This document shows, one piece after another, positions 2,499-14,311 of a stretch of 14,311 nucleotides of DNA (positions are counted from its first letter, which is position 1; every line of letters starts with the position of its first letter). The notes under the pieces were generated by a model. The model worked only from the letters and a program-made list of their open reading frames with translations. It ran no database searches and was not told the DNA's origin. The DNA is from DASVDK01 sp036562265 [NCBI: Thermodesulfobacteriota bacterium] (lineage in GTDB: Bacteria > DASVDK01): NCBI GenBank assembly GCA_036562265.1, contig DATCKS010000232.1:1-14311 (forward strand), in the 5' to 3' direction. The position numbers and the translations under genes are program-made.

Positions 2499-2507
2499 GC
2501 CGCGTGG

Positions 2508-2513
2508 CACACT
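2508..2513 (+). promoter_or_regulatory. Candidate -10 box for a leaderless dehydrogenase mRNA
   Basis: CACACT ends 6 bases before the ATG at 2520. No Shine-Dalgarno site is present in the 59-base gap. The context ACACTCTCGTC-ATG closely resembles ACACTTTCGCCC-GTG at the aminotransferase start. No clear -35 box was found. Confidence 0.35.
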
Positions 2514-2519
2514 CTCGTC

Positions 2520-3518
2520 ATGCGGGCGTGGGTCGTCGAGCGCACGGGACCGATCGACGGCGGGGCGATCCTCCGGCGCGTCGAGCGCGACGTGCCGCGT
2601 CCGGCCCCCGGCGAGGCGCTCGTTCGGGTGCTCGCCTGCGGCGTCTGCCGGACCGACCTGCACGTGGTCGAGGGCGACCTCGATCTGCCCGCCCTCCCGC
2701 TCGTCCCCGGCCACCAGGCGGTGGGGGAGGTCGTCGAGGCGCCGGCAGGAAGCGGGCTCGCCGCCGGCGACCGCGTCGGGATCCCGTGGCTGCGCTGGAC
2801 GTGTGGCCGCTGCCGGTTCTGCCGCTCGGGCCGCGAGAACCTCTGCCCGGACGCCCGCTTCACCGGCTTCCACGCGGACGGCGGCTACGCCGACTATGCC
2901 ACCGTGCCGGCCGCCTTCGCGCTGCCGTTGCCGGCCGGCCTCGCCCCGGTCGAGGCGGCCCCGCTGCTCTGCGCCGGCGTGATCGGCTTCCGGGCGCTCA
3001 GGCTTTCGGGAATCCGGCCCGGCGGGCGGCTCGGCCTCTACGGCTTCGGCGCCGCCGCGCACCTCGCCGTCCAGGTGGCGCGCCACTGGGGCTGCGAGAC
3101 CTTCGTCTTCACGCGGACGGGCGAGCATGCGGAGCTTGCCCGCTCGCTCGGGGCCGCCTGGGTGGGGCGGTCGGACGAGGCGCCTCCCGCGCCGCTCGAC
3201 GCCGCCGTCGTGTTCGCGCCGGCCGGCGTCGTCGTGCCGTACGCGCTCCGCGCGCTCGACCGCGGCGGCACCGTGGCCATCGCCGGCATCCACATGACGC
3301 CGATCCCGCCGCTCGACTACGACCGCGACCTCTTCCTCGAGCGCACGCTCCGCAGCGTCACGGCCAACACGCGGGAGGACGCCCGCGAGTTCCTCCGCCT
3401 CGCGGCCGAGATCCCCGTACGCACGTCCGTCGAGCGGGTCCCCTTCGACCAGGCCCGCGAGGCGCTCGTCCGTCTCGCGCGCGGCGAGGTGCAGGGGGCC
3501 GCCGTCCTCGAGCTCTAG
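2520..3518 (+). CDS. Zinc-dependent alcohol dehydrogenase (MDR family)
   Basis: A 332-residue medium-chain dehydrogenase, expected to oxidise an alcohol or reduce an aldehyde with NAD(P) in the cytosol. The N-terminal GroES-like domain carries the catalytic zinc ligands Cys40 (ACGVCRTD) and His65 (GHQAVGE), with Cys151 as the probable third ligand. A structural-zinc loop has four cysteines at 95, 98, 101 and 109 (CGRCRFCRSGRENLC). The nucleotide-binding domain follows with a GLYGFGAAAH glycine-rich loop at about 172-181. Length and pattern fit the AdhA-type subgroup of about 330 residues. The ATG at 2520 is the natural start by homology; no ribosome site precedes it. It lies upstream of the IclR operon with that operon's promoter in between, so it is probably a separate unit. 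The physiological substrate is unknown. Confidence 0.92.
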   Translation: MRAWVVERTGPIDGGAILRRVERDVPRPAPGEALVRVLACGVCRTDLHVVEGDLDLPALPLVPGHQAVGEVVEAPAGSGLAAGDRVGIPWLRWTCGRCRFCRSGRENLCPDARFTGFHADGGYADYATVPAAFALPLPAGLAPVEAAPLLCAGVIGFRALRLSGIRPGGRLGLYGFGAAAHLAVQVARHWGCETFVFTRTGEHAELARSLGAAWVGRSDEAPPAPLDAAVVFAPAGVVVPYALRALDRGGTVAIAGIHMTPIPPLDYDRDLFLERTLRSVTANTREDAREFLRLAAEIPVRTSVERVPFDQAREALVRLARGEVQGAAVLEL

Positions 3519-3545
3519 GCGGCCGGCTGGCGCCAGAACGCCGGT

Positions 3546-3574
3546 TTGACGAGCGTCCGGCCGGGCGATAGAGT
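3546..3574 (+). promoter_or_regulatory. Sigma70-type promoter of the IclR-led operon
   Basis: TTGACG at 3546-3551 and TAGAGT at 3569-3574 are exactly 17 bases apart, close to the bacterial consensus. Transcription should begin near 3581. The IclR-type palindrome at 3596-3612 lies just downstream, where a bound repressor would block clearance. This is the only good promoter seen ahead of the ten-gene block. Confidence 0.7.
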
Positions 3575-3595
3575 CTTTCCACGTTGCAAGCGCGT

Positions 3596-3612
3596 GTTTC
3601 GTATAGTGAAAC
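3596..3612 (+). promoter_or_regulatory. Palindromic operator, probably for the adjacent IclR regulator
   Basis: GTTTCGTATAGTGAAAC has perfect 5-base arms, GTTTC and GAAAC, around a 7-base AT-rich centre. The pattern, TTTCxxxxxxxGAAA spaced about one helical turn, is like sites bound by IclR-family dimers. It is AT-rich against a very GC-rich background and starts about 15 bases after the predicted transcription start. Autoregulation of the regulator and the operon behind it is the simple inference. No second copy was seen in the window. Confidence 0.6.
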
Positions 3613-3637
3613 ATCGCCGCGGCGCGCCGCGTACGAC

Positions 3638-4405
3638 GTGGCGGTGCTCGGCAAGGCCCTCGCCATCGTCGAGGCGCTCGTCGACGGCCCCACCCTCGGC
3701 GTGAGCGAACTCAGCGACCGGACCGGCGCGAGCAAGGCGTCGGTGTTCCGCATTCTCGCCACGCTCGAGCGTCGCGGCTACGTCGCGAAGGATCCGGTGA
3801 GCCGCAAGTACCGGCCCGGACCTCGGCTGCTCGCCATCGCGTGCGGGCTCGTGTCCGGGCACGACCTCGTGCAGGGGGCGAGGCCCGTGCTAGCCGCCCT
3901 CCACGCGGAGTTCGACGAGACGGTCAACCTCGGGATCCTCAGCGAGGGGCAGGTGCTGTACCTCGACATCCTCGAGAGCAGTCACGGGCTCCGCATGGCC
4001 GCTCGCGTCGGCAGCCGCCACCCGCTGCACACCACCGCACTCGGCAAGGCGATCCTCGCCTGGCTGCCGGCCGACGAGGCGAGGCGGCTCCTCCCGGAGA
4101 GGCGTTTCGAGCGGCGGACCCCGCGCAGCGTCACCGCGTGGCCGTCGCTCGAGCGGCAACTCGCCGCCTTCCGGAAGCAGGGGTACGCGGTGGACGACGA
4201 GGAGAACGAGGCCGGCGTGCGCTGCGTCGGCGCGCCGATCCTGGACGTTCGCGGCCGGCCCGTGGCGAGCATCAGCGTGGCGGGCCCCGCCTCGCGCCTG
4301 CGCGACGCGACGATCCGCCGGATCGGCCGGCGGCTGGTCGACGCGGCGTCGGCGATCGCGGAGCGGATGGGCTACCGCGCCGGCGGCGGAGCCCGGGTCT
4401 CCTGA
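3638..4405 (+). CDS. IclR-family transcriptional regulator
   Basis: A DNA-binding repressor or activator, 255 residues from this start. The N-terminal winged helix-turn-helix covers about residues 4-60, with LGVSELSDRTGASKASVFRI as the helix-turn-helix and LERRGYVAKDP leading into the wing. The C-terminal IclR effector-binding domain follows, with HTTALGKAILAWL, then YAVDDEENEAGVRCVGAPIL and a DVRGRPVASISVAG core strand, all typical. The start is uncertain. TTG at 3584 adds 18 residues but would put the operator inside the coding sequence; GTG at 3638 or 3644 leaves it in the leader and still gives a complete domain. None has a clear ribosome site. Position at the head of the operon suggests it controls the downstream genes, with a substrate or breakdown product of the pathway as effector (inference). 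Confidence 0.92.
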   Translation: MAVLGKALAIVEALVDGPTLGVSELSDRTGASKASVFRILATLERRGYVAKDPVSRKYRPGPRLLAIACGLVSGHDLVQGARPVLAALHAEFDETVNLGILSEGQVLYLDILESSHGLRMAARVGSRHPLHTTALGKAILAWLPADEARRLLPERRFERRTPRSVTAWPSLERQLAAFRKQGYAVDDEENEAGVRCVGAPILDVRGRPVASISVAGPASRLRDATIRRIGRRLVDAASAIAERMGYRAGGGARVS

Positions 4406-4420
4406 GCGATGAGGGGGCGG

Positions 4421-5920
4421 ATGCGGCTCGCCGTGCTCGGCCTGCACCACGAGACGAACACCTTCGCGCCCACCGCGACCACCTACGAGGACTTCGCCCG
4501 CGCGGGGATCCTGCGCGGCGACGAGATCGTCCGGGCCTACCGCGACTCCCACGCCACGCTCGCCGGCTTCTTCGACGCGGCCGAGCGCCACGGCGCCGAC
4601 TTTGTCCCCCTGCTCTTCGCGACCACGGAGCCCTCGGGCACGATCACGGCCGAGGCGTTCGACCGGATCGTCGGCGAGATGCTCGACCGGCTCGCCTCCG
4701 GCGGGCCGTGGGACGGCGTCCTCCTGGCGCAGCACGGCGCGGCCGTGGCCGAGGGCCACCCCGACGCCGACGGCGAGATCGCCGCGCGCGTCCGCGAGGT
4801 CGTCGGCCCGGCGGTGCCGATCGGTCTCGCCCTCGACATGCACGCCAACGTCTCCCGGCGCATGATCGAGAACGTGACGGCGACGGTTACCTACCGGACC
4901 AACCCGCACCTCGACCCGCGGCCGCGGGGCTTCGAGTGCGCGGAGATCGTCGTCCGGGCCGCGCGCGGCGAGGTGCGCCCGGTGCAGGCGCTCGAGACGC
5001 CGCCCCTCGTCATCAACATCGTCCGGCAGTGCACGGACGAGGAGCCGATGCGGAGCCTCGTAGGCGACGTCGAGTCGGTCATCGGCCGCGCGGGCCTCCT
5101 GTCGGCAAGCCTCGCGGAAGGCTACCCGTACGCCGACGTGCCGGAGATGGGGATGTCGGCCCTCGCGGTGGCCGACGGCGACCCGCTGGCGGCGCGGGAG
5201 GCGGCCCGCTGGCTCGCCCGGCGCGCGTGGGAGCGGCGTGCCGAGATGACCGGCGCCATCGCGTCGCCCGAAGAGGCGCTCCGCCGGGCGGCCGCGGCCC
5301 CGCGGGGTCCGGTCGTGCTCATGGACGTCGGCGACAACATCGGCGGCGGCAGCCCGGCCGACTCCACGGTCCTCCTCGCGACGGCGAGGCGTCTCGGGGT
5401 CCGGGGCCTCCTGCAGACGCTCTACGATCACGAGGCCGTCGCCGCCTGCGCGGCCGCCGGCGTCGGGGCGACGGTGCGGCTGCGCGTCGGGGCGAAGACC
5501 GACGACCGGCATGGCGAGCCGGTCGAGGTCGAGGGGCGGGTGCGGCTCCTCTCCGACGGCCGCTACGAGGATCCGGCGCCGACGCACGGCGGCACCCGCT
5601 TCTTCGACGCCGGGCCGACGGCGGTGCTCGAGACGGACGAGGACCACACGCTCGTCCTCACGAGCCGGCGCGTCGGCAACACGAGCCGCGAGCAGATGTA
5701 CGCGCTCGGCATCAGACCCGAGCGGAAGCGGGTGATCGTGGCGAAGGGGGTGGTGTCGCCCAGGCCGGCCTACGCGCCGATCGCGGCCGAGATCATCCTG
5801 GTCGACACGCCGGGGGTGACGAGCGCCGACCTGAGCCGCTTCCGGTACGAGCGGCGCCGGCGGCCGCTCTACCCGTTCGAGCCGGAAGCGGCCTATCCCG
5901 GCTGTGAGGTCACGCGATGA
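4421..5920 (+). CDS. M81 family metallopeptidase, MlrC (microcystinase C)-like
   Basis: About 499 residues, the normal length for M81/MlrC proteins. The N-terminus MRLAVLGLHHETNTFAP holds the family's H-E-T-N motif. TTEPSG with Glu70 and AQHGA with His105 follow. LALDMHANVS (Asp139, His141) and RTNPHLDPRPRG (His163) give the likely zinc ligands. The C-terminal DUF1485-type domain carries VLMDVGDNIGGGSPADST at about 313-330, a hallmark of the family. MlrC cleaves linearised microcystin, which contains D- and beta-amino acids; the many related proteins act on unknown small peptides or amides. ATG at 4421 is chosen because GAGGGGG (4411-4417) precedes it; ATG at 4409 has no ribosome site and adds four residues. 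It lies 15 bases after the IclR gene and overlaps the next start by ATGA. Confidence 0.9.
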   Translation: MRLAVLGLHHETNTFAPTATTYEDFARAGILRGDEIVRAYRDSHATLAGFFDAAERHGADFVPLLFATTEPSGTITAEAFDRIVGEMLDRLASGGPWDGVLLAQHGAAVAEGHPDADGEIAARVREVVGPAVPIGLALDMHANVSRRMIENVTATVTYRTNPHLDPRPRGFECAEIVVRAARGEVRPVQALETPPLVINIVRQCTDEEPMRSLVGDVESVIGRAGLLSASLAEGYPYADVPEMGMSALAVADGDPLAAREAARWLARRAWERRAEMTGAIASPEEALRRAAAAPRGPVVLMDVGDNIGGGSPADSTVLLATARRLGVRGLLQTLYDHEAVAACAAAGVGATVRLRVGAKTDDRHGEPVEVEGRVRLLSDGRYEDPAPTHGGTRFFDAGPTAVLETDEDHTLVLTSRRVGNTSREQMYALGIRPERKRVIVAKGVVSPRPAYAPIAAEIILVDTPGVTSADLSRFRYERRRRPLYPFEPEAAYPGCEVTR

Positions 5921-6597
5921 CGGACGACATCGGCGCCGCCCCGGGTAGCGCGGCGTACTACGACGCGCTCGCCGCGCGCCTCGGCTCGGCGCTCCTGGCC
6001 GACATCCTCGACGACCTCGGCGTGCGGACGAGCGTCATGCGGCACACGATCCGCCCGCTCTTCGACCGCGCCGTCGCCGTGGGGCGCGCGGCGACGATGC
6101 TCGCGGTCGACGTGTACGAGACGCCGGCAGAGCCCTACCGGCACCTCATGGAGGGGCTCGACGCGCTCGAGCCGGGTGCGGTGGTGGTCGTCACGACCAA
6201 CGGGTCGACGCGGGCGGCCCTGTGGGGGGAACTCCTGTCGACGGCCACCGCAAGCCGCGGCGGCCGCGGCGCGGTGCTCGACGGCCTCGCGCGGGACGCG
6301 CGTCGGATCGAGGCGATGGGGTTTCCCGTCTTCAGCACCGGGCTCTCGCCGGCCGACTCGAAGGGCCGCTGCGAGGTGATCGCGCACGGCGTCACGATCG
6401 AGGCGGGAGGCGTCCGCGTGCGGCCGGGGGACCTGGTCTTCGGAGACCGCGACGGCGTGGTCGTCGTGCCGCAGGAACTCGAGGCCGAGGCGGTCCGGCG
6501 AGCCCTCCGGAAGGCGTCCGAGGAGAACAGGGTCCGCGAGGCGCTCCGCGGCGGGATGCCGGTGACCGAGGCCTTCCGCCGCTACGGCGTGCTCTAG
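5917..6597 (+). CDS. RraA-like aldolase / oxoacid decarboxylase
   Basis: A 226-residue member of the RraA / HMG-CHA aldolase superfamily. The key stretch ALWGELLSTATASRGGRG, then AVLDGLARDARRI, holds the substrate- and metal-binding Arg126-Asp127 pair, 20 residues after Glu105. The C-terminal VRPGDLVFGDRDGVVVVP is also typical. Characterised relatives cleave 4-hydroxy-4-methyl-2-oxoglutarate or 4-carboxy-4-hydroxy-2-oxoadipate to pyruvate with a divalent metal and often decarboxylate oxaloacetate. The RNase E-inhibitor role of E. coli RraA is unlikely in a catabolic operon. It starts with ATG in an ATGA overlap with the MlrC-like gene, so it is translationally coupled. Beside a PLP dehydratase/aldolase and a RidA protein, a job on the resulting 2-oxoacid is plausible (inference). 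Confidence 0.9.
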   Translation: MTDDIGAAPGSAAYYDALAARLGSALLADILDDLGVRTSVMRHTIRPLFDRAVAVGRAATMLAVDVYETPAEPYRHLMEGLDALEPGAVVVVTTNGSTRAALWGELLSTATASRGGRGAVLDGLARDARRIEAMGFPVFSTGLSPADSKGRCEVIAHGVTIEAGGVRVRPGDLVFGDRDGVVVVPQELEAEAVRRALRKASEENRVREALRGGMPVTEAFRRYGVL

Positions 6598-6760
6598 GGC
6601 CCGTCGTACGAAGGCCGGTAAGCGGGAGCCGCCGGGCCGTGCCCGACGACGGCCGGCGACCGTCGAACGACCTGACGACGTGGCGCGGCGGGAGGCCCCT
6701 GGCAGAGCGAGAACACGAGACTTTGCAAACGCAGCCCAGGACGGCGGAGGGAGCGACGAC
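6598..6760 (+). other. 163-base gap inside the operon with alternative hairpins
   Basis: No convincing gene was found here. Two mutually exclusive weak stems can be drawn. One is CGGGC-CGT-GCCCG at 6633-6645, extended by a 4-bp outer helix that ends at 6653. The other is CGACGG with CCGTCG at 6647-6652 and 6660-6665. There is no U tract, and no good -35/-10 pair was seen. The gap ends with the strong Shine-Dalgarno run GGAGGGAG at 6746-6753, seven bases before the RidA ATG. Confidence 0.3.
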
Positions 6761-7162
6761 ATGCCGAAGAGCCAGATCACCACGCGCAAGGCGCCGGCGC
6801 CGATGGGGCCCTACTCCCAGGGCCTGCGCGCGGGCGACTTCGTCTACGTGTCCGGCCAGGGGCCGATCGACCCCGAGACCGGACAGGTCAAGGGGACGAC
6901 CGTCGAGGAGCAGACGGCCGCGACGCTCGACAACGTGAAGGCGATCCTCGAGGCGGCCGGCGCGTCGATGGCCGACGTCGTCAAGACCACCTGTCATCTG
7001 GCCGACCTGTCCCACTTCTCGCGGTTCAACGCGGTCTACGAGCGCTACTTCCCGGAGCCGCGGCCGGTCCGGACGACGGTCGGCAGCCAGCTCCTCGGGA
7101 TCCTGGTCGAGGTGGACGTCGTGGCCTACGTCGGCGCAGACGGCGCGAAGGCCGGTCGATAG
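6761..7162 (+). CDS. RidA family (YjgF/YER057c/UK114) enamine/imine deaminase
   Basis: A 133-residue protein, typical of the trimeric RidA family, which hydrolyses reactive enamine/imine products of PLP enzymes, such as 2-aminoacrylate, to the 2-oxoacid and ammonia. Visible signatures are APAPMGPYSQG at 11-21, VYVSGQGPIDPETG at 28-41, and the active-site RPVRTTVG with Arg104 and ILVEVDVVAYV with Glu117, which match the catalytic Arg and Glu of E. coli RidA. ATG at 6761 is chosen because GGAGGGAG lies seven bases before it and homologues begin MxK..I.T; a longer in-frame extension upstream is low-complexity. It sits three bases before the PLP enzyme gene, the enzyme type whose by-products RidA proteins clear. 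Some Rid subfamilies lack this activity, but the catalytic Arg is kept here. Confidence 0.95.
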   Translation: MPKSQITTRKAPAPMGPYSQGLRAGDFVYVSGQGPIDPETGQVKGTTVEEQTAATLDNVKAILEAAGASMADVVKTTCHLADLSHFSRFNAVYERYFPEPRPVRTTVGSQLLGILVEVDVVAYVGADGAKAGR

Positions 7163-7165
7163 CCG

Positions 7166-8272
7166 ATGTCCGCGCTCTTCCCCGAACTCGACACGCCGGC
7201 CCTGGTCGTCGACCTCGCCGTCATGGAGGCGAACCTCGAGCGCATGGCGGCCGAGGCCCGGCGCCGGGGGGTGCGCCTTCGGCCCCACACCAAGACGCAC
7301 AAGGCGCCCTGGATCGCGAAGCGGCAGCTCGAGTACGGGGCGAGCGGCATCACCGTCGCCAAGCTCGGCGAGGCCGAGGTCATGGTCGCGGCCGGGATCC
7401 GCGACATCCTCGTCGCCTACCCGATCGTCGGCGAGCGCAAGCTCGAGCGGCTCGCGGCGCTTGCCGCCGACGCCGACGTGAAGGTCTCGCTCGACTCGGT
7501 CGAGGCGGCCTATGGGGTGTCGGCGGTCGGCCGCCGGATCGGCCGCCGCGTGCCGATCTACCTGGAGATCGACACCGGCCTCGGCCGGGTCGGGGTCCTG
7601 CCGGGGCAGGAGGCGGTCGAACTCGCGCGGGCGATCGCGCGCCTGCCGGGGGTCGAGATCGTCGCGGTGACGTCCCACGGCGGCCACGTCGGCGCGGCCG
7701 AGAGCGAAGAGGCGCTCGAGGCGGCGTCGCGGGCGCAGGCGCGCGTGCTGGTCGAGACGGCCGAGGCGCTCCGCGCCGCGGGGATCGGGGTCGTCGGCGT
7801 GAGCCCCGGCTCGACCCTCACGGCGCGCTTCGACCTCGACACGCCGGGCGTCACCGAGATCCGCCCCGGGACGTACGTCTTCAACGACGCCAACACCGTG
7901 CGCCGGTGGTCGGCGTCGCTCGAGACCTGCGCCGCGTTCGTCGTCGCCACGGTCGTGTCGAGGCCGGCCTCGGATCGCGCGGTCGTGGACGCGGGAAGCA
8001 AGACCTTCAGTTCGGATCGGCCGGTGGGGGGCGACGAGCACGGCTACGGCATCGTCAAGGGGCGGCCGGGACTGGTGCTCACGAGACTCACCGAGGAGCA
8101 CGGGATGCTGCGGGTCACGGGGGCGGCCTCGGATCTGCGCATCGGCGATCGGCTGGCGATCGTCCCGAACCACATCTGCACCGCCGTGAACCTCGCCGAC
8201 GTGCTCTACGGCGTGCGGGACGGTCGGGTGGTCTCGGAAATCGCGGTAGCCGGTCGCGGGAAGCGGACGTGA
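7166..8272 (+). CDS. Fold-type III PLP enzyme, D-serine dehydratase / D-threonine aldolase family
   Basis: A 368-residue protein with an alanine-racemase-like N-terminal barrel. RPHTKTHK at 39-46 holds the Schiff-base Lys (probably Lys43); EIDTGLGRVGV at 134-144, SHGGH at 170-174 and VSPGSTLTA at 212-220 form the PLP-phosphate and substrate region. The C-terminal metal site VPNHICTAVN gives His336 and Cys338. A His-x-Cys zinc pair is known in chicken D-serine dehydratase, while D-threonine aldolases have His-x-Asp. A dehydratase acting on D-serine or D-3-hydroxyaspartate is thus at least as likely as an aldolase. The cytosolic product would be pyruvate or oxaloacetate plus ammonia, or glycine plus an aldehyde. 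It begins three bases after the RidA stop with little ribosome site, suggesting coupling. Confidence 0.92.
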   Translation: MSALFPELDTPALVVDLAVMEANLERMAAEARRRGVRLRPHTKTHKAPWIAKRQLEYGASGITVAKLGEAEVMVAAGIRDILVAYPIVGERKLERLAALAADADVKVSLDSVEAAYGVSAVGRRIGRRVPIYLEIDTGLGRVGVLPGQEAVELARAIARLPGVEIVAVTSHGGHVGAAESEEALEAASRAQARVLVETAEALRAAGIGVVGVSPGSTLTARFDLDTPGVTEIRPGTYVFNDANTVRRWSASLETCAAFVVATVVSRPASDRAVVDAGSKTFSSDRPVGGDEHGYGIVKGRPGLVLTRLTEEHGMLRVTGAASDLRIGDRLAIVPNHICTAVNLADVLYGVRDGRVVSEIAVAGRGKRT

Positions 8273-8298
8273 ACCGCTGGTCACGGAGGAGGTGTCGT

Positions 8299-9846
8299 AT
8301 GCGGAGGATCGCGATCGGAGCGCTCCTGCTCGCCCTGGGCCTGTCCGTCGTCGGCCCGCGCTGGGCGGACGCGCAGGAGGGGAAGCGGGGAGGGACGCTG
8401 CGCGTGGCGACCATCGGCGAGCCGCCGGGGCTCGACACGATGCTGCCCTACGGCATCCTGGCGCAGCACATCGGCAAGCACGTCTTCGAGAACCTCTTCA
8501 CCTTCGACGCCAACTGGCGTCCGGTGCCGATGCTGGCCGAGAGCTACACGACGAGCGCCGACGGCAAGGTCTACACGATCAGGCTCCGCCGCGGCGTCCG
8601 GTTCCACGACGGGTCGGCCTTCGACGCGGCCGACGTGGTCGCCTCGCTCGAGCGCTGGGTGCAGGTCGAGAGCACGGCCAAGTCGCTCCTGGCGCCGAAC
8701 CTCGAGTCGATCCGGGCGGTCGACCCGCAGACGGTCGAGGTGAAGCTCAAGGCCCCCTCGTGGGTCCTGATCTACATGCTCGCCGCCGACGCGGCGCCCG
8801 TGTACCCGTCGGAGCTGGTGCAGAAGTTCGGCAACCAGCCGATCAAGGAGTACGTCGGCACCGGGCCGTATCGCTTCGTGCAGTGGCTCCCCGACCGGCA
8901 CATCGAGCTGGCCCGCTTCGACGGCTACGCCGCTCGCAACGAGTCGCCGAGCGGCTTCGCCGGCAAGCGGGTCGCCTACCACGACACGATCCGCTTCGTC
9001 CCGGTCCCGGACGTGTCGGTGCGCGTGGCGGGCGTGCAGTCGGGGCAGTACGACGTGGCGCTCGACGTCAACCCCGACATGTACCAGACCCTCAAGGACG
9101 ACCAGCGGGTCCGCTCCCTCCTGATCCGCCCCTTCGGGTGGCCGTTCTTCGCGATGAACAAGGCGCAGGGGCTCTTCGCCGACGTGCGGCTCAGGCGGGC
9201 GTTCCTCGCCGCGCTCGACATGGACCAGCTCATGGCGGCGGGCTTCGGCGACCCGGCGCTCTACGCCGTGAACGGCAGCATCTATCCGAAGGAGATCGCC
9301 GACTGGTACACGACGGCCGGCACCGAGCCGTACAACCAGAAGGCGACGGCCCGCGCGAAGCAGCTCCTCGCGGAGGCCGGGTACGACGGCAAGCCGCTCC
9401 GGATCATCACGAGCCGGCAGTACGACTTCCTCTACAAGATCAGCCTCGTGGCGGCGCAACAGGCGCGCGCGGCCGGCTTCAACGTCGACCTCCAGGTGGT
9501 CGAGTGGGCGACGCTCGTCGAGCGGCGCCAGAAGCCGGATCAGTACGAGATCTTCGTGACGTTCAACTCCATGTCGCCGGCGCCGCCGCTCTACCAGCTC
9601 TGGCTCTTCGAGTTCTGGCCCGGCTGGTGGAAGAACGAGGAGAAGGACCGGCTCCTCGCGCGGTTCGGCGCCGCCACGGACCCTGCTATCCGTGCGGAGA
9701 TCTGGAGGAACATCCAGGCGCTCATCTGGAGCGAGGTGCCGATCGTCAAGGTGGGCGACTTCTTCGGCTACGCCCTCGCGTCGCCGAAGCTCGAGGGCGT
9801 GCAGGAGACCTACACGATGCCCTTCTGGAACACCTGGACCAGGTAG
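8299..9846 (+). CDS. ABC transporter substrate-binding protein, dipeptide/oligopeptide type (SBP_bac_5)
   Basis: A 515-residue exported binding protein, normal length for DppA/OppA-type proteins. The signal peptide is residues 1 to about 25: MRRI, a hydrophobic core IGALLLALGLSVVG, and a likely signal peptidase I cut after ADA; there is no lipobox Cys. The mature start GGTLRVATIGEPPGLD, then RLRRGVRFHDGSAFDAADVVASLERW and YVGTGPYRFVQW are the classical family signatures. It should capture peptides, N-acyl amino acids or similar small amides in the periplasm and deliver them to the two permeases. The ligand cannot be read from the sequence. GGAGGAGG at 8285-8292 lies six bases before the ATG, one of the strongest ribosome sites here, as expected for an abundant component. 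A stem-loop follows the stop. Confidence 0.95.
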   Translation: MRRIAIGALLLALGLSVVGPRWADAQEGKRGGTLRVATIGEPPGLDTMLPYGILAQHIGKHVFENLFTFDANWRPVPMLAESYTTSADGKVYTIRLRRGVRFHDGSAFDAADVVASLERWVQVESTAKSLLAPNLESIRAVDPQTVEVKLKAPSWVLIYMLAADAAPVYPSELVQKFGNQPIKEYVGTGPYRFVQWLPDRHIELARFDGYAARNESPSGFAGKRVAYHDTIRFVPVPDVSVRVAGVQSGQYDVALDVNPDMYQTLKDDQRVRSLLIRPFGWPFFAMNKAQGLFADVRLRRAFLAALDMDQLMAAGFGDPALYAVNGSIYPKEIADWYTTAGTEPYNQKATARAKQLLAEAGYDGKPLRIITSRQYDFLYKISLVAAQQARAAGFNVDLQVVEWATLVERRQKPDQYEIFVTFNSMSPAPPLYQLWLFEFWPGWWKNEEKDRLLARFGAATDPAIRAEIWRNIQALIWSEVPIVKVGDFFGYALASPKLEGVQETYTMPFWNTWTR

Positions 9847-9863
9847 GGCCGAGTGAGTGGCGT

Positions 9864-9890
9864 CGGGGGCCGGCCTCTGGCCGGCCCCCG
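9864..9890 (+). promoter_or_regulatory. 12-bp intergenic stem-loop between binding protein and permease
   Basis: CGGGGGCCGGCC (9864-9875) pairs perfectly with GGCCGGCCCCCG (9879-9890) around a TCT loop, inside the 63-base gap. It starts 17 bases after the stop of the binding-protein gene. There is no U tract, so full termination is unlikely. Stem-loops at this place in ABC operons are known to stabilise the upstream message or cause partial termination, so that more binding protein than permease is made. Confidence 0.7.
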
Positions 9891-9909
9891 CGCCCGACCC
9901 GAGGGCGGC

Positions 9910-10857
9910 ATGTCCCGATACGTTCTCCGGCGACTCCTCTCCGCGGTGCCCGTCGTCGTGCTGGTCGCGGTCATCGTCTTCGTCGCGGTCCAGCTCGCCC
10001 CGGGCGATCCGGTGCTCGTGATGCTCGGCTCGGACGCGCGCCCCGAGGTGATCGAGTCGATGCGGCGCGACCTCGGGCTCGACCGGCCGATCCACGTCCA
10101 GTTCCTCGCCTGGGTGGGGCGCGCCCTCACCGGGGACCTCGGGCGCTCGCTCTTCCTCGACCGGCCGGTGACCACGGCCATCGCCGAGCGGCTCGAGCCG
10201 ACGGTGCTCCTGACCTTCGGCGCGGTGGCGGTGGCGATCGCGATCGGCGTGCCGGCCGGCATCCTCTCCGCCGTCCGCAAGGGGGGCCTCGTCGACCAGG
10301 CCTTCATGCTCCTCGCCCTCTCGGGCGTCTCGGTTCCCGAGTTCTGGCTCGCCCTGAACCTCGTCGTCGTCTTCGGCGTCGACCTCCGCTGGTTCCCGGT
10401 CGCGGGCTACGTGCCGATCGCCGAAGGGGGCCTCCTCGCGGCGCTCCGGTGCCTCGTCATGCCGGCCTTCGCCGTCGGCTTCGTCCAGTCGGCCTTGATC
10501 GCCCGGATGACGCGGGGGGCGATGATCGAGGTGCTCTCGCAGGACTACGTCCGCACGGCGCGGGCCAAGGGGGTCAGCGCGTTCGGCGTCGTCGCGAAGC
10601 ACGCGTTCCGCAACGTCCTGGTCTCGGTCGTCACGGTCGTCGGCCTCGTCTTCGCCCTGGCGCTCGGCGGCGCCATCGTGGTCGAGACGGTGTTCAACAT
10701 CCCGGGGATCGGGCGCCTGCTCGTCGAGTCGGTGCTCAGGCGCGACTACACCCTGATCCAGGGGGTGGTCCTCTACATCGCCGTCGCCTACGTCCTCTTC
10801 AACCTGCTGGTCGACGTGCTCTACGTCTACATCGACCCGCGCGTGAGGTACGGATGA
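9910..10857 (+). CDS. ABC transporter permease, DppB/OppB type
   Basis: A 315-residue inner-membrane permease. It opens with the family-typical MSRYVLRRLLSAVPVVVLV and first membrane segment, then LAPGDPV and MRRDLGLDRPIHVQFLAWVG in the external region. About five further membrane segments follow. The EAA loop that contacts the ATPase is YVRTARAKGVSAFGVVAKHA, at about 213-232, and NIPGIGRLLVESVLRRDY follows. It forms the channel with the DppC-like partner. ATG at 9910 is chosen because GAGGG lies four bases before it and homologues begin here; an in-frame upstream extension would run through the stem-loop. It overlaps the next gene by ATGA. No ATP-binding subunit is encoded in the window. Confidence 0.95.
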   Translation: MSRYVLRRLLSAVPVVVLVAVIVFVAVQLAPGDPVLVMLGSDARPEVIESMRRDLGLDRPIHVQFLAWVGRALTGDLGRSLFLDRPVTTAIAERLEPTVLLTFGAVAVAIAIGVPAGILSAVRKGGLVDQAFMLLALSGVSVPEFWLALNLVVVFGVDLRWFPVAGYVPIAEGGLLAALRCLVMPAFAVGFVQSALIARMTRGAMIEVLSQDYVRTARAKGVSAFGVVAKHAFRNVLVSVVTVVGLVFALALGGAIVVETVFNIPGIGRLLVESVLRRDYTLIQGVVLYIAVAYVLFNLLVDVLYVYIDPRVRYG

Positions 10858-11705
10858 CGGGCCGGGCCGCGGCCGTGATGGGCGCCCTCGGCAGGCGGCC
10901 GAGCAGCCTCGTGGGGAGCGTCGCGGTCCTCGTGATGCTCGTCGTCGCGCTCGCCGCCCCCTGGCTGCCGATCCCGGGGCCGAACGACCTCGACGTGGTG
11001 AACCGCCTCAAGGCGCCCGGCGCGGGCCACTGGTTCGGCACCGACGACCTCGGCCGCGACGTGCTCTCCCGCGTGGTGTACGGCGCCAGGGTGTCGCTCC
11101 TCGTCGGCTTCCTCGTGAGCGGGTTCGCGCTGGTGGCGGGCGGCCTCGTCGGGCTCGTGGGGGGCTACTACTCCCGCCTGGACAACGTGCTCATGCGGCT
11201 CATGGACGGGTTCATGGCGTTCCCGAACATCGTCCTCGCGATCCTGCTCATGGCGATGCTCGGCGCGAGCGTCACCGGCATCGTCGTGGCGCTCGGCATC
11301 ACCTACGCCCCGCGGATGGCGCGCGTCGTGCGGAGCGCCGTGCTCGTCGTCCGGGAGGCGACCTACGTCGAGTCGGCGAGGGCCATCGGCTCGACCGACC
11401 GGAGCATCATCGCCCGCTACGTGACGCCGAACTGCATCTCGCCCATCGTCGTGCAGTGGACGTTCATCTTCGCCTACGCGATCCTCGGCGAGGCGAGCCT
11501 CTCCTTCCTCGGCATCGGTGTGCCGCCCGAGGTGCCGACCTGGGGGACGATCCTCAGCGAGGGGCGGGCGTACATCGGCCGGGCGCTCTGGATGACCCTC
11601 TTCCCCGGGCTCGCCATCTTCTGGACCGTGCTCGGGCTCAACCTCCTCGGAGACGGCGTGCGCGACTCGCTCGATCCCTACATGCGCAAGGCGGTTGGGC
11701 TGTGA
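10854..11705 (+). CDS. ABC transporter permease, DppC/OppC type
   Basis: A 283-residue inner-membrane permease and partner of the DppB-like protein. The N-terminal segment LVGSVAVLVMLVVALAAPWL is followed by the very typical HWFGTDDLGRDVLSRVVYGARVS region at about 59-81. Further membrane segments and the EAA loop YVESARAIGSTDRSIIARYV (171-190) follow, then LGEASLSFLGIGVPP at 211-225 and PTWGTILSEGR. The C-terminus GLNLLGDGVRDSLDP is the family hallmark. The start ATG overlaps the previous stop (ATGA), and the stop overlaps the next GTG start (GTGA), so translation of three genes is coupled. As with its partner, the substrate follows from the operon context, not from the sequence. Confidence 0.95.
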   Translation: MTGRAAAVMGALGRRPSSLVGSVAVLVMLVVALAAPWLPIPGPNDLDVVNRLKAPGAGHWFGTDDLGRDVLSRVVYGARVSLLVGFLVSGFALVAGGLVGLVGGYYSRLDNVLMRLMDGFMAFPNIVLAILLMAMLGASVTGIVVALGITYAPRMARVVRSAVLVVREATYVESARAIGSTDRSIIARYVTPNCISPIVVQWTFIFAYAILGEASLSFLGIGVPPEVPTWGTILSEGRAYIGRALWMTLFPGLAIFWTVLGLNLLGDGVRDSLDPYMRKAVGL

Positions 11706-13288
11706 CGACCACCCTCGTACGCGGCGCGACCGTGGTCGACGGAACGGGGTCGCCGCCCCGGCGAGCCGACATCCTCGTCCGCGGCGACCGGATCGCCGAC
11801 GTGGGGCTCTGGGAGCGGGTGGAGGCGGGGAGCGTCGTCGATGCCGACGGCCTCGTCGCCACGCCCGGCTTCATCGACACCCACTTCCATGGCGACCTCT
11901 CCCTCTTCGCCGACCCGATCCACGCCTGTACGCTCAGGCAGGGCGTGACGACGGTGATCCTCGGCCAGGACGGGCTCTCGTACGCGCCGCTCGGCCCGGC
12001 CAACCTCGACCTCTGGCGCCGGTACCTCGTCGGCCTCAACGGCAAGCCGGACGTCGAGGCGCGCTGGTCGTCGGTCGCCGAGTACCGGCGCGCGCTCGAC
12101 CGCCGCGTGGCGGTGAACACCGCGTACGCCGTCCCGCACGCGGCGCTCAGGCTCGAGACGGTGGGGTTCCGGAACGTGCCGCTCGAGGGCGCCATGCTCG
12201 ACCGCGCGCGGGCGCTCCTCGAGCGCGGCTTCGAGGAGGGCGCCGTCGCCTTCTCGACCGGCCTCAGCTACTTCCCGAACGCGTACGCCGACACGCGCGA
12301 ACTCGTCGCGCTCTGCCGCGTGGCGGCCCATGCGGGGCGGCCCTACGTCACGCACGTCCGCACCGTCTTCGACGTCCCGCCGGCCGACTGGCTCCTCGCG
12401 GGCCTCGAGGAGGCGCTCGAGATCGGCCGGCAGAGCGGCGTCGCGGTCCACGTCTCCCACTTCGGCCCCAAGCCGTGGCGCTACGAGAGCCCCGACGCGC
12501 TCACCGCGCCGGTGGACCGGGCGAAGGCGGACGGCGTGGACGTCACGCTCGAGCTCTACCCGTACCCGGCGGGGAACACGTTCGCGCTCATCTACCTGCC
12601 GCCCTTCGCGCACGAGGGGGGGCCGGACGCGCTCCTCGCCCGGATCCGCTCGGGCGAGCGCCGCAAGGAGATGCTCGCCGGCATCGAGGCCAACACCATA
12701 CGCCCGCACGGCGCGACGCTGGCCTACCTCCCGAGCGGCCGCAACCGGCGGTACCTCGGCCGGACGATCGACGAGGTGGCGCGCGACCGCGGCCTGTCGG
12801 TGGCCGAGGCGGTCCTCGCCCTGCTCGACGAGGAGGACCTCGCGGTCGGGTGCCGCGACGCCGTGCCGCCGATGGACGACGGGTGGCGGCGCTTCGACGC
12901 GGAGCTGATGCACCTCCTCGCGCGGGGCGACTACACGATCGGCAGCGACGCCATCCCGGCGGCCGAGTTCCCGCACCCGCGCACGTACGGCGCCTTCCCC
13001 CGCGTGCTGCGGGTGGGACGGGAGACGGGCGGGCTGCCGCTCGAGCGTCTGGTGCACCTCATGACCGGCCTGCCGGCCGCGCGGTTCGGCCTCACGGGGC
13101 GTGGCCGCATCGCGCCGGGGGCCTTCGCCGACCTCGTCCTCCTCGAGGCGGATCGCGTCGCCGATCGATCGACCTACGACGAGCCGACGGCCGCGCCGGT
13201 CGGCGTGCGGCACGTCATGGTGAACGGCGAGTGGGTCCTGCGCGACGGCGAGCCGACCGGACGCCGGCCGGGCCGGAGCGTGCCGTGA
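11702..13288 (+). CDS. D-aminoacylase family amidohydrolase (N-acyl-D-amino-acid deacylase)
   Basis: A 528-residue amidohydrolase with an N-terminal beta-sandwich part (TLVRGATVVDGTG), a TIM barrel and a C-terminal GRIAPGAFADLVLLE segment. Metal ligands read as HFH (His61, His63), His218 in VTHVRT, His253 in VSHFG and Asp416 in IGSDAIP. PHPRTYGAFPRVL at 425-437 is typical of the D-aminoacylase group. Where Alcaligenes D-aminoacylase has its metal-bridging Cys in GNCG, this protein has GQDG (Asp90). Family members remove acyl groups from N-acyl-D-amino acids; related ones act on other N-acyl or cyclic amides. The GTG start at 11702 overlaps the permease stop (GTGA), and the stop overlaps the M20 start the same way. 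No signal peptide is seen, so it should act in the cytosol after import. Confidence 0.9.
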   Translation: MTTTLVRGATVVDGTGSPPRRADILVRGDRIADVGLWERVEAGSVVDADGLVATPGFIDTHFHGDLSLFADPIHACTLRQGVTTVILGQDGLSYAPLGPANLDLWRRYLVGLNGKPDVEARWSSVAEYRRALDRRVAVNTAYAVPHAALRLETVGFRNVPLEGAMLDRARALLERGFEEGAVAFSTGLSYFPNAYADTRELVALCRVAAHAGRPYVTHVRTVFDVPPADWLLAGLEEALEIGRQSGVAVHVSHFGPKPWRYESPDALTAPVDRAKADGVDVTLELYPYPAGNTFALIYLPPFAHEGGPDALLARIRSGERRKEMLAGIEANTIRPHGATLAYLPSGRNRRYLGRTIDEVARDRGLSVAEAVLALLDEEDLAVGCRDAVPPMDDGWRRFDAELMHLLARGDYTIGSDAIPAAEFPHPRTYGAFPRVLRVGRETGGLPLERLVHLMTGLPAARFGLTGRGRIAPGAFADLVLLEADRVADRSTYDEPTAAPVGVRHVMVNGEWVLRDGEPTGRRPGRSVP

Positions 13289-14311
13289 GGCCCGAGGCGA
13301 TCCTCGCGGGGATCGACGCCCGTCGCGAGGAACTGCTCGATCTGCTCGACCGCCTCGTCCGGACGCCGAGCATCAACCCGGGCGGCGACGAGCGGGCGGT
13401 GGCCGACCTCCTCGGCGGCTACCTGCGGTCGGTCGGACTCGGCGACCAGCGGGTCCTCGCGAAGGCGCCCGAGCGGCCGAACCTCGTCGTCCGCCTCCGC
13501 GGGCGAAAGCCGGGCCCGGTCCTCATGCTCTCCGGCCACATGGACACCAAGCCGGTCGGCGAGGACGTGGCGCACCTCTGGCGGACCGATCCCTTCACCC
13601 CGGTCCTCGTGGACGGACGTCTCTACGGCCTCGGCACGGCCGACATGAAGGGGGCGGTGGCCGCCATGGCGGTGGCGGCCGCGGTCCTCGCCGAGGCGGA
13701 CGCCCCTCTCGCCGGCGACCTCTTGCTCGTCTTCACGGCGGACGAGGAGGCCGGCGGCCGGCTCGGGGCGCGCTACCTGTCGGAGGAGACCGACCTTGCG
13801 GCCGACGTGGGGCTCGTCGGCGAGCCGTGCGGGGTCGCGCGCGACTGGGAGACGCTCTGCCTCGCCGCGCGCGCCACGCTCGGCTTCCGGACGCGCGTCC
13901 ACGGGACGCAGGCCCACAGCAGCCTCTCGGACCGGCTGCCGGTCACGAACGCGGTGCAGAAGATGGCCCGGGTGCTCGACCGGATGGCGCGCGAGTTCCG
14001 GGTCGAGATGCCGCCGCACCCCTACTATCCCGCCGGGGTCACGCACAACATCGGCGTCACCGTCGACGGCGGCGTCTTCTACGGCGTCGTGCCGGGTCTG
14101 GCGGAGTTCCGATCCGATCTCAGGCTGCCGCCCGGGATCACGGTCGCCGAGGCGTGGCGGCAGGTGAACGCCTTCGTCGAGCGGCTGAGGCGCGAGGACC
14201 CGGGGCTCGGGATCGACCTCGTGCGAGACCTCCCCGCAGGAGCGGAGGACGACGTCCCGATCCCGGAGGTGCCGCCCGACGAGCCGCTCGTCCGATCGGT
14301 CCGGAAGGCCG
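13285..14311 (+). CDS. M20 family metallopeptidase (ArgE/DapE-like), cut by window end
   Basis: The first 342 residues of a zinc amidase/peptidase; the stop is beyond the window, and a family length near 400 implies about 50-80 residues are missing. Visible active-site parts are LSGHMDTKP with His85 and Asp87, GTADMKGA with the bridging Asp120, TADEEAGG with catalytic Glu154 and metal-binding Glu155, and VGEP with Glu180. GTQAHSS with His211 marks the dimerisation (lid) domain. Relatives remove acyl groups from amino acids or cleave dipeptides (ArgE, DapE, carboxypeptidase G2, peptidase V); the exact substrate is not clear. GTG at 13285 is in a GTGA overlap with the D-aminoacylase stop and gives the expected N-terminus. 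It likely completes the hydrolytic set of the operon. Confidence 0.93.
   Translation, partial: MRPEAILAGIDARREELLDLLDRLVRTPSINPGGDERAVADLLGGYLRSVGLGDQRVLAKAPERPNLVVRLRGRKPGPVLMLSGHMDTKPVGEDVAHLWRTDPFTPVLVDGRLYGLGTADMKGAVAAMAVAAAVLAEADAPLAGDLLLVFTADEEAGGRLGARYLSEETDLAADVGLVGEPCGVARDWETLCLAARATLGFRTRVHGTQAHSSLSDRLPVTNAVQKMARVLDRMAREFRVEMPPHPYYPAGVTHNIGVTVDGGVFYGVVPGLAEFRSDLRLPPGITVAEAWRQVNAFVERLRREDPGLGIDLVRDLPAGAEDDVPIPEVPPDEPLVRSVRKA

Follow-up and report, generated by a model that had tools for sequence, protein, structure and literature searches.

The window analysed here is a stretch of 14,311 bases (contig DATCKS010000232.1, from a Thermodesulfobacteriota bacterium), and its principal feature is a putative catabolic operon of ten genes, all on the + strand, which extends from 3638 to the window end. 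In order these encode an IclR-family regulator (3638..4405), an M81/MlrC-family metallo-amidase (4409..5920), an RraA-like protein (5917..6597), a RidA enamine/imine deaminase (6761..7162), a fold-III pyridoxal phosphate (PLP) enzyme (7166..8272), an ABC substrate-binding protein (SBP; 8299..9846), ABC permeases of the DppB type (9910..10857) and DppC type (10854..11705), a D-aminoacylase-like amidohydrolase (11702..13288) and an M20 ArgE/DapE-like deacylase (13285..14311). With starts taken at 3638 for IclR, 6761 for RidA, 8299 for the SBP and 9910 for the first permease, the successive intergene gaps are 3, -4, 163, 3, 26, 63, -4, -4 and -4 bases. The first-pass annotation had described co-directional genes with tiny gaps or 4-base overlaps and a single exception of 163 bases; the ten co-directional genes and the 163-base gap are real, but there are further gaps of 26 and 63 bases. 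The M20 frame is truncated by the window end and there is no ABC ATPase gene among the genes of the window, so the operon is probably cut off at that point.

A sigma-70-like promoter, TTGACG-N17-TAGAGT, is located at 3546..3574 (+) and is the sole such site in 3400-14311, where 0.2 would be expected. Directly 3' of it lies a perfect palindrome, TGTTTC-N7-GAAACA (3595..3613, +), which is the single match window-wide at up to two mismatches; the mean for shuffled sequence was 0.02 and 4 of 200 shuffled windows held a palindrome match. The single promoter/operator claimed earlier is thus borne out. The palindrome is likely to be the IclR operator, the identity of the regulator being judged from position, and since the longest IclR frame (from TTG 3584) overlaps it, the true IclR start is probably GTG 3638. 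The form GTTTC-N7-GAAAC was found at six places in five other loci, and no conserved operator is claimed.

The fold-III enzyme, which carries PF01168 and PF14031 and is proposed to be a D-beta-hydroxy-amino-acid dehydratase, was compared with proteins of known structure. The best match was the D-threonine aldolase 4v15 (208 bits), followed by a second D-threonine aldolase, 7dib (186), D-threo-3-hydroxyaspartate dehydratase 3wqc (182), D-serine dehydratase 3anu (157) and D-3-hydroxyaspartate aldolase 6qkb (155). Its metal site, PNHICT, is of the H-x-C form found in the dehydratase 3wqc, whereas the D-threonine aldolases 4v15 and 7dib have H-x-D, these three being the proteins whose alignments were viewed. 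Among 96 fold-III frames from the loci compared, a few genes being included twice (e.g. L089 and L100), H-x-C occurred in 90 and H-x-D in one, a second copy in L046; the motif was not seen in five, including the short frame of L062. On the strength of this motif a dehydratase is preferred to an aldolase for the window enzyme. It shares fold III and H-x-C with D-hydroxyaspartate dehydratase, although its score to D-threonine aldolase is higher (208 vs 182 bits), and belongs to the same fold-III family as D-serine dehydratase. Action on a D-beta-hydroxy amino acid, as first suggested, fits the family, but with dehydration and not aldol cleavage as the indicated reaction.

One rival explanation is a route for D-3-hydroxyaspartate, or one resembling the beta-hydroxyaspartate cycle, in which the PLP enzyme would be an aldolase of the BhcC type and the regulator would be BhcR. 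These are indeed the best NCBIfam matches of the two proteins, but at 205 bits BhcC falls far below its equivalog cut-off of 690, and membership was dropped, while BhcR (217.8 bits) misses its cut-off of 350. The H-x-C motif belongs to a dehydratase, and no BhcB- or BhcD-type match was present among the ten proteins scanned (for two of them, among the best 25 matches). Sub-cut-off BhcC matches are also shown by the fold-III proteins of other clusters (L095 199, L128 210, L130 188 and L126 78 bits). Such a route is considered very improbable.

The regulator matches PF01614 (161.5 bits) and PF09339 (53 bits). RidA, scanned from 6680, passes the TIGR00004 cut-off (134.1 bits against 106.25) and has R104 within RTTV, and is consistent with an enamine/imine product of the PLP enzyme. 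The RraA-like protein (PF03737, 120.9 bits), for which a role as a 2-keto-3-deoxy acid aldolase is proposed, reads E105-X20-R126-D127; HMG/CHA aldolases of the RraA fold carry an Arg-Asp pair with an acidic residue 21 positions earlier, and the acid here is Glu. In the part of PMC5065237 available, most homologues of RraA are regarded as aldolases of the pyruvate type, and the accessible text of PMC8563752 describes an RraA-family protein, FlDet, that acts on a 2-keto-3-deoxy sugar diacid, but as a dehydratase/decarboxylase.

Three different amidase folds are present. The D-aminoacylase-like protein (PF07969, 106 bits) matches N-acyl-D-glutamate deacylase 3gip (234 bits), D-aminoacylase 1m7j (227) and PpOngB 9kb1 (182). 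It keeps the HxH, His220, His250 and Asp366 positions of 1m7j (THFHGD, VTHVRT, VSH and GSD), which we take to be metal-site residues along with Cys96 as the bridging ligand, but differs in lacking the Cys ligand, with Asp at the Cys96 position and GQDG instead of GNCG. The Asp-for-Cys variant is common to L002, L007, L106 and L107, and Azospirillum L095 keeps the Cys. The proteins of L106 (9184-10764) and L107 (8985-10610) also lack the first later metal His, and each lies beside a gene labelled as an SBP. The M20 protein (PF01546, 79.5 bits) reached 160.5 bits against TIGR01910, below the cut-off of 217.6. The M81 protein (PF07364 325 bits, PF07171 181 bits) has the D-x-H...H metal pattern of its family from position 143. 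The first-pass annotation had assigned these three amidases to D-residue peptides or N-acyl-D-amino acids; amide hydrolysis is retained, but a longer-chain D-beta-hydroxy amino acid is now favoured as the moiety released, and one of the three hydrolases is without the typical Cys ligand.

The reading narrowly favoured is that the operon is under IclR control and serves to break down an N-acylated D-beta-hydroxy-alpha-amino acid, with reactions, substrate and regulator-operator pairing all deduced from sequence. The substrate would be imported by the ABC system and its amide hydrolysed by the D-aminoacylase-like, M81 or M20 enzyme, or by more than one of them. The freed D-beta-hydroxy amino acid would then be dehydrated by the PLP enzyme to an enamine/imine, RidA would aid hydrolysis of this to ammonia and a 2-keto-3-deoxy acid, and the RraA-like protein would split the latter into pyruvate and an aldehyde, with IclR acting at the palindrome. 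The RraA-like gene, together with relatives that carry aldolase, KDG-kinase-like (KDG, 2-keto-3-deoxygluconate) or DgaE-type genes, points to a longer-chain D-beta-hydroxy amino acid and not to D-peptides in general. The substrate is perhaps N-acetylglucosaminate or another 2-amino-2-deoxy aldonate, or else a relative of these with a shorter chain. The sequence of uptake, amide hydrolysis and D-amino acid breakdown originally put forward is still the best reading, and related blocks occur in several phyla.

The proposed logic is that of the ong pathway for GlcNAc1A from oxidised chitin. In the available part of its description (PMC9537276), a D-aminoacylase-family enzyme (OngB) deacetylates GlcNAc1A, a fold-III enzyme (OngC), which also accepts D-Ser and D-Thr, yields KDG and ammonia, and the RidA protein (OngD) is essential for growth. 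The window shares this trio and the proposed handling of an N-acyl D-amino acid. It differs in having IclR, ABC, M81, M20 and RraA genes where ong, as described there, has RpiR, a sodium (SSS) symporter, GH20 and KdgK, and in the missing Cys of its hydrolase; no KDG kinase, GH20, RpiR or SSS symporter was found among the 14 window genes scanned (up to the window end). By this analogy the window would encode an N-acyl D-hydroxy-amino-acid route that parallels ong in its workings while standing outside it. No operon of this kind is described in the papers listed by searches of open-licence PMC text, as judged by title and start of abstract.

Relatives of the transporter provide parallels to the gene set. 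The window SBP (SBP_bac_5, PF00496, 249 bits) has its best match among the loci compared in Azospirillum brasilense L095 (42%; the next best is 30%), and the DppB- and DppC-type permeases (both PF00528) are 53% and 55% identical to Azospirillum proteins. L095 has a divergent IclR gene, SBP, two permeases, D-aminoacylase, RidA, a fold-III PLP enzyme annotated as alanine racemase, and two ATPases; in A. thermophilum L114 the genes follow one another as in L095, the PLP gene being split into two annotated pieces. These clusters thus share seven of the ten gene kinds. They differ in their two ATPases and the Cys in the hydrolase (L095), and M81, RraA and M20 were not annotated in the stretches viewed. 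No characterisation of this Azospirillum cluster was found in the literature searched. In a plasmid collection 40 SBP matches of 42-45.5% identity were listed, and in all six loci viewed SBP, two permeases, amidohydrolase, RidA and PLP enzyme were annotated, with IclR in five (L115 being without). The rhizobial loci L111, L112, L113, L115 and L116 (IclR in 4/5) have a different amidohydrolase and a PLP enzyme annotated as aminotransferase class V-fold; in L111, which was scanned, these matched PRK09237 (427 bits, cut-off 371) and the DgaE family TIGR01437 (314 bits, cut-off 385.3). A transporter, RidA and regulator of one kind are therefore accompanied by PLP enzymes of two unrelated families, and both, the fold-III and the DgaE-type (the latter in L111), are by sequence assigned to families deaminating D-hydroxy-amino acids. 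If the favoured reading is correct, this suggests that one logic, of amide hydrolase, PLP lyase, RidA and keto-acid aldolase or kinase, was assembled more than once from unrelated enzymes, and it would provide a route for breaking down N-acyl D-hydroxy-amino acids that can be put to the test.

A Paenibacillus cluster, L002, shares IclR, a D-aminoacylase-like protein with Asp (46%), the PLP enzyme, RidA and M81. It differs by a class-III aminotransferase, SDR, SGL and glycerate kinase, and upstream of it lie other ABC permeases and a regulator of the AraC type; RraA, M20 and SBP are not labelled in it, and no characterisation of it was found in the literature searched. In the alphaproteobacterial metagenome-assembled genome loci L077 and L080 D-aminoacylase-like, RidA and PLP genes occur together. 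Association was also assessed in 80 loci retrieved with the PLP protein as query, which are the matches listed in the genome scan, so that closer relatives may exist beyond them; same-strand genes up to 4 kb away (563 kb) were compared with those 6-10 kb away on either strand (448 kb), using profiles built from matches in those loci. RidA was found 21 times near and 3 times far, M81 15 and 0, M20 15 and 4, and D-aminoacylase-like genes 13 and 1, a label which includes weak amidohydrolase matches such as that in L020. Enrichment near the PLP gene is thus seen for the hydrolases and RidA, but for neither the regulator nor the transporter. All 15 cases of M81 near PLP were from Paenibacillaceae and represent approximately one lineage. 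A search for the fold-III protein in the phylum of G018 gave 2/148 genomes at E 1e-85. In L062 (8779-10945) a creatininase-family gene, another amidase fold, directly precedes RidA and a fold-III gene, the latter with a shorter frame than its relatives have.

A number of observations weigh against the favoured reading. Among the loci compared, none besides the window held all ten genes, although related blocks recur in several phyla. In the 80 loci IclR (4 near, 5 far), SBP (0, 2) and the permeases PermB (0, 3) and PermC (2, 3) were not enriched, and none had an RraA-like gene in the vicinity of PLP (0/80). In a draw of 190 genomes from the alphaproteobacterial class to which G021 belongs there were 48 PLP places, with a single contig (G698 C18, where an Amidase gene and related permeases are present too) carrying M81 within ~10 kb among the matches listed, and only one of 15 D-aminoacylase-like places adjoined a listed PLP place, that of the seed genome G021. 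Unlabelled immediate PLP neighbours were mixed, short-chain dehydrogenases making up 7/79 with no dominant family (79 of 92 were used; 13 near-duplicates or short frames were excluded). The RraA-like protein fell far short of the cut-offs of the HMG and CHA aldolase equivalog models (96 of 179 and 87 of 304.5 bits), and the known RraA-fold aldolase presumably has Asp at the position of Glu105. The closest M81 relative, L105, has no labelled PLP gene near its M81, and SBPs of the window's family usually take peptides. The reading is weakened, and two rivals are slightly strengthened, by the lack of IclR and ABC enrichment around the PLP gene and by the rarity, in the class of G021, of the link between D-aminoacylase and PLP.

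The mixed neighbours, the rarity in that class of PLP links to M81 or D-aminoacylase (among the matches listed), the three amidase folds and the many contexts of M81 would all suit a broad scavenging operon for mixed amides, each hydrolase having its own substrate and no single pathway running through all genes. Hydrolase-RidA-PLP sets do recur with a related transporter, which argues against this, and it is judged improbable. The transporter, being of dipeptide/oligopeptide type, suits a route for D-peptides or D-seryl/D-threonyl peptides, in which DppA-type import and the three hydrolases would be followed by conversion of D-Ser or D-Thr to pyruvate or 2-oxobutyrate by the PLP enzyme and RidA, the RraA-like protein doing something else. 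The activity of OngC on D-Ser and D-Thr (PMC9537276, available part) is also in keeping with it. Such a route needs no aldolase, yet the relatives have DHDPS, KDG-kinase-like or DgaE-type genes, and it is thought unlikely, though with more to recommend it than scavenging.

Nine additional M81 regions (of 40 listed) were viewed. ABC genes were present in 8/9, M20 or amidohydrolase in four, D-serine ammonia-lyase in one and M55 in two; L124 was without any of these. M81 lies beside the D-serine ammonia-lyase in L118 (437 bits, cut-off 246). In L120 and L123 an M55 gene (6068-6892 in each) is divergent from M81 and near an annotated D,D-dipeptide ABC permease, the M55 protein of L120 reaching 184 bits to D-aminopeptidase DppA (cut-off 430). 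Both arrangements are in keeping with the D-peptide route.

Among the M81 matches listed the closest is that of L105, an alphaproteobacterial metagenome-assembled genome (53%), flanked by an SBP-labelled gene and a zinc-type dehydrogenase. Next are three acidobacterial proteins (47-48%, two near-identical), all with a DHDPS-family gene within ~1.2 kb of M81, the order in L097 being PALP-SDR-RidA-M81-DHDPS. The M81 protein of L099 is 38% identical, and an RraA-like gene (90 bits) lies ~2.3 kb upstream of its gene in the same orientation. These neighbours, together with the KDG-kinase-like genes of the clusters described next, support the aldolase step of the favoured reading. In a tree of 42 M81 proteins the window, its row being of biased composition, pairs with L105 (100/99), and these form one group of 21 rows with the acidobacterial relatives, L099 and Paenibacillus proteins (97/98). 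M81 was detected in 4/247 genomes of Acidobacteriota at E 1e-80, in 0/149 genomes of the phylum of G001 at E 1e-100, in a search without a positive control, and in 66/190 genomes of the class of G021, including the one 53% match.

A second, separate M81 group was viewed in eight alphaproteobacterial plasmid regions, of which L091-L093 were picked via the PLP search, so that their PLP gene was known beforehand, and L126-L130 via M81 similarity. RidA and RpiR were present in 8/8 and a strong fold-III gene in 6/8, with a weak one in L126 and none labelled in the L129 stretch; GH20 is annotated in L129 and L130, without an NCBIfam match. KDG-kinase-like genes in L091 and L092, Phaeobacter and Paracoccus clusters, scored 172 and 239 bits where 400 was required. 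No D-aminoacylase gene was found in the eight by annotation or profile. Judged by its genes, this group resembles the ong arrangement with M81 in place of OngB. L129 (1797-3233) and L130 (1996-3429) each have a second, very divergent M81 gene next to the annotated GH20, and these two make up a long branch of their own in the M81 tree.

MlrC, the microcystinase, shares the Pfam domains and Zn pattern of the window M81. The glutamate of the Adda-Glu bond in microcystin is, we assume, D-Glu. As far as the available part of PMC4810221 describes, D-x-H...H is zinc-binding in 3IUU and essential in MlrC, which cleaves only the Adda-Glu bond, in linear microcystins, and hence an acyl-Glu amide. The context differs, that of the window being apparently one of amino-acid amide catabolism, and microcystinase membership was dropped (165.7 bits against an MlrC model cut-off of 999). 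The cleavage of an acyl-Glu amide by MlrC, and the position of M81 in place of OngB, make N-acyl-D-amino-acid amidase activity a possible common denominator of M81. It is a tentative suggestion, with a chance somewhat short of even, that M81 proteins are at root N-acyl-D-amino-acid amidases, many for 2-amino-sugar acids, that replace D-aminoacylase in ong-like pathways, that microcystin cleavage by MlrC is a recruited instance of this reaction, and that the window joins both hydrolases with a non-phosphorylating RraA aldolase. No non-microcystin M81 activity is described, by title and start of abstract, in the papers listed by searches of open-licence PMC text. The suggestion would, if true, give a testable general function to a widespread family, and the M81 link is the part most worth testing.

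Upstream of the operon the gene scan identified the end of a GDSL-hydrolase gene, a convergent class I/II aminotransferase (377-1621), a Bax1-I family gene and, on the operon strand just 5' of the promoter, a zinc-type alcohol dehydrogenase (2499-3518). A gene similar to the last adjoins M81 in L105, and the dehydrogenase may handle an aldehyde product. The aminotransferase finds its best matches in Acidobacteriota (57% at most, among 247 genomes), which is too distant to assign the host lineage. Between the GDSL-hydrolase gene end and the aminotransferase gene there are two identical 24-base copies (320-343 and 345-368; none expected), which may be an intergenic repeat element.

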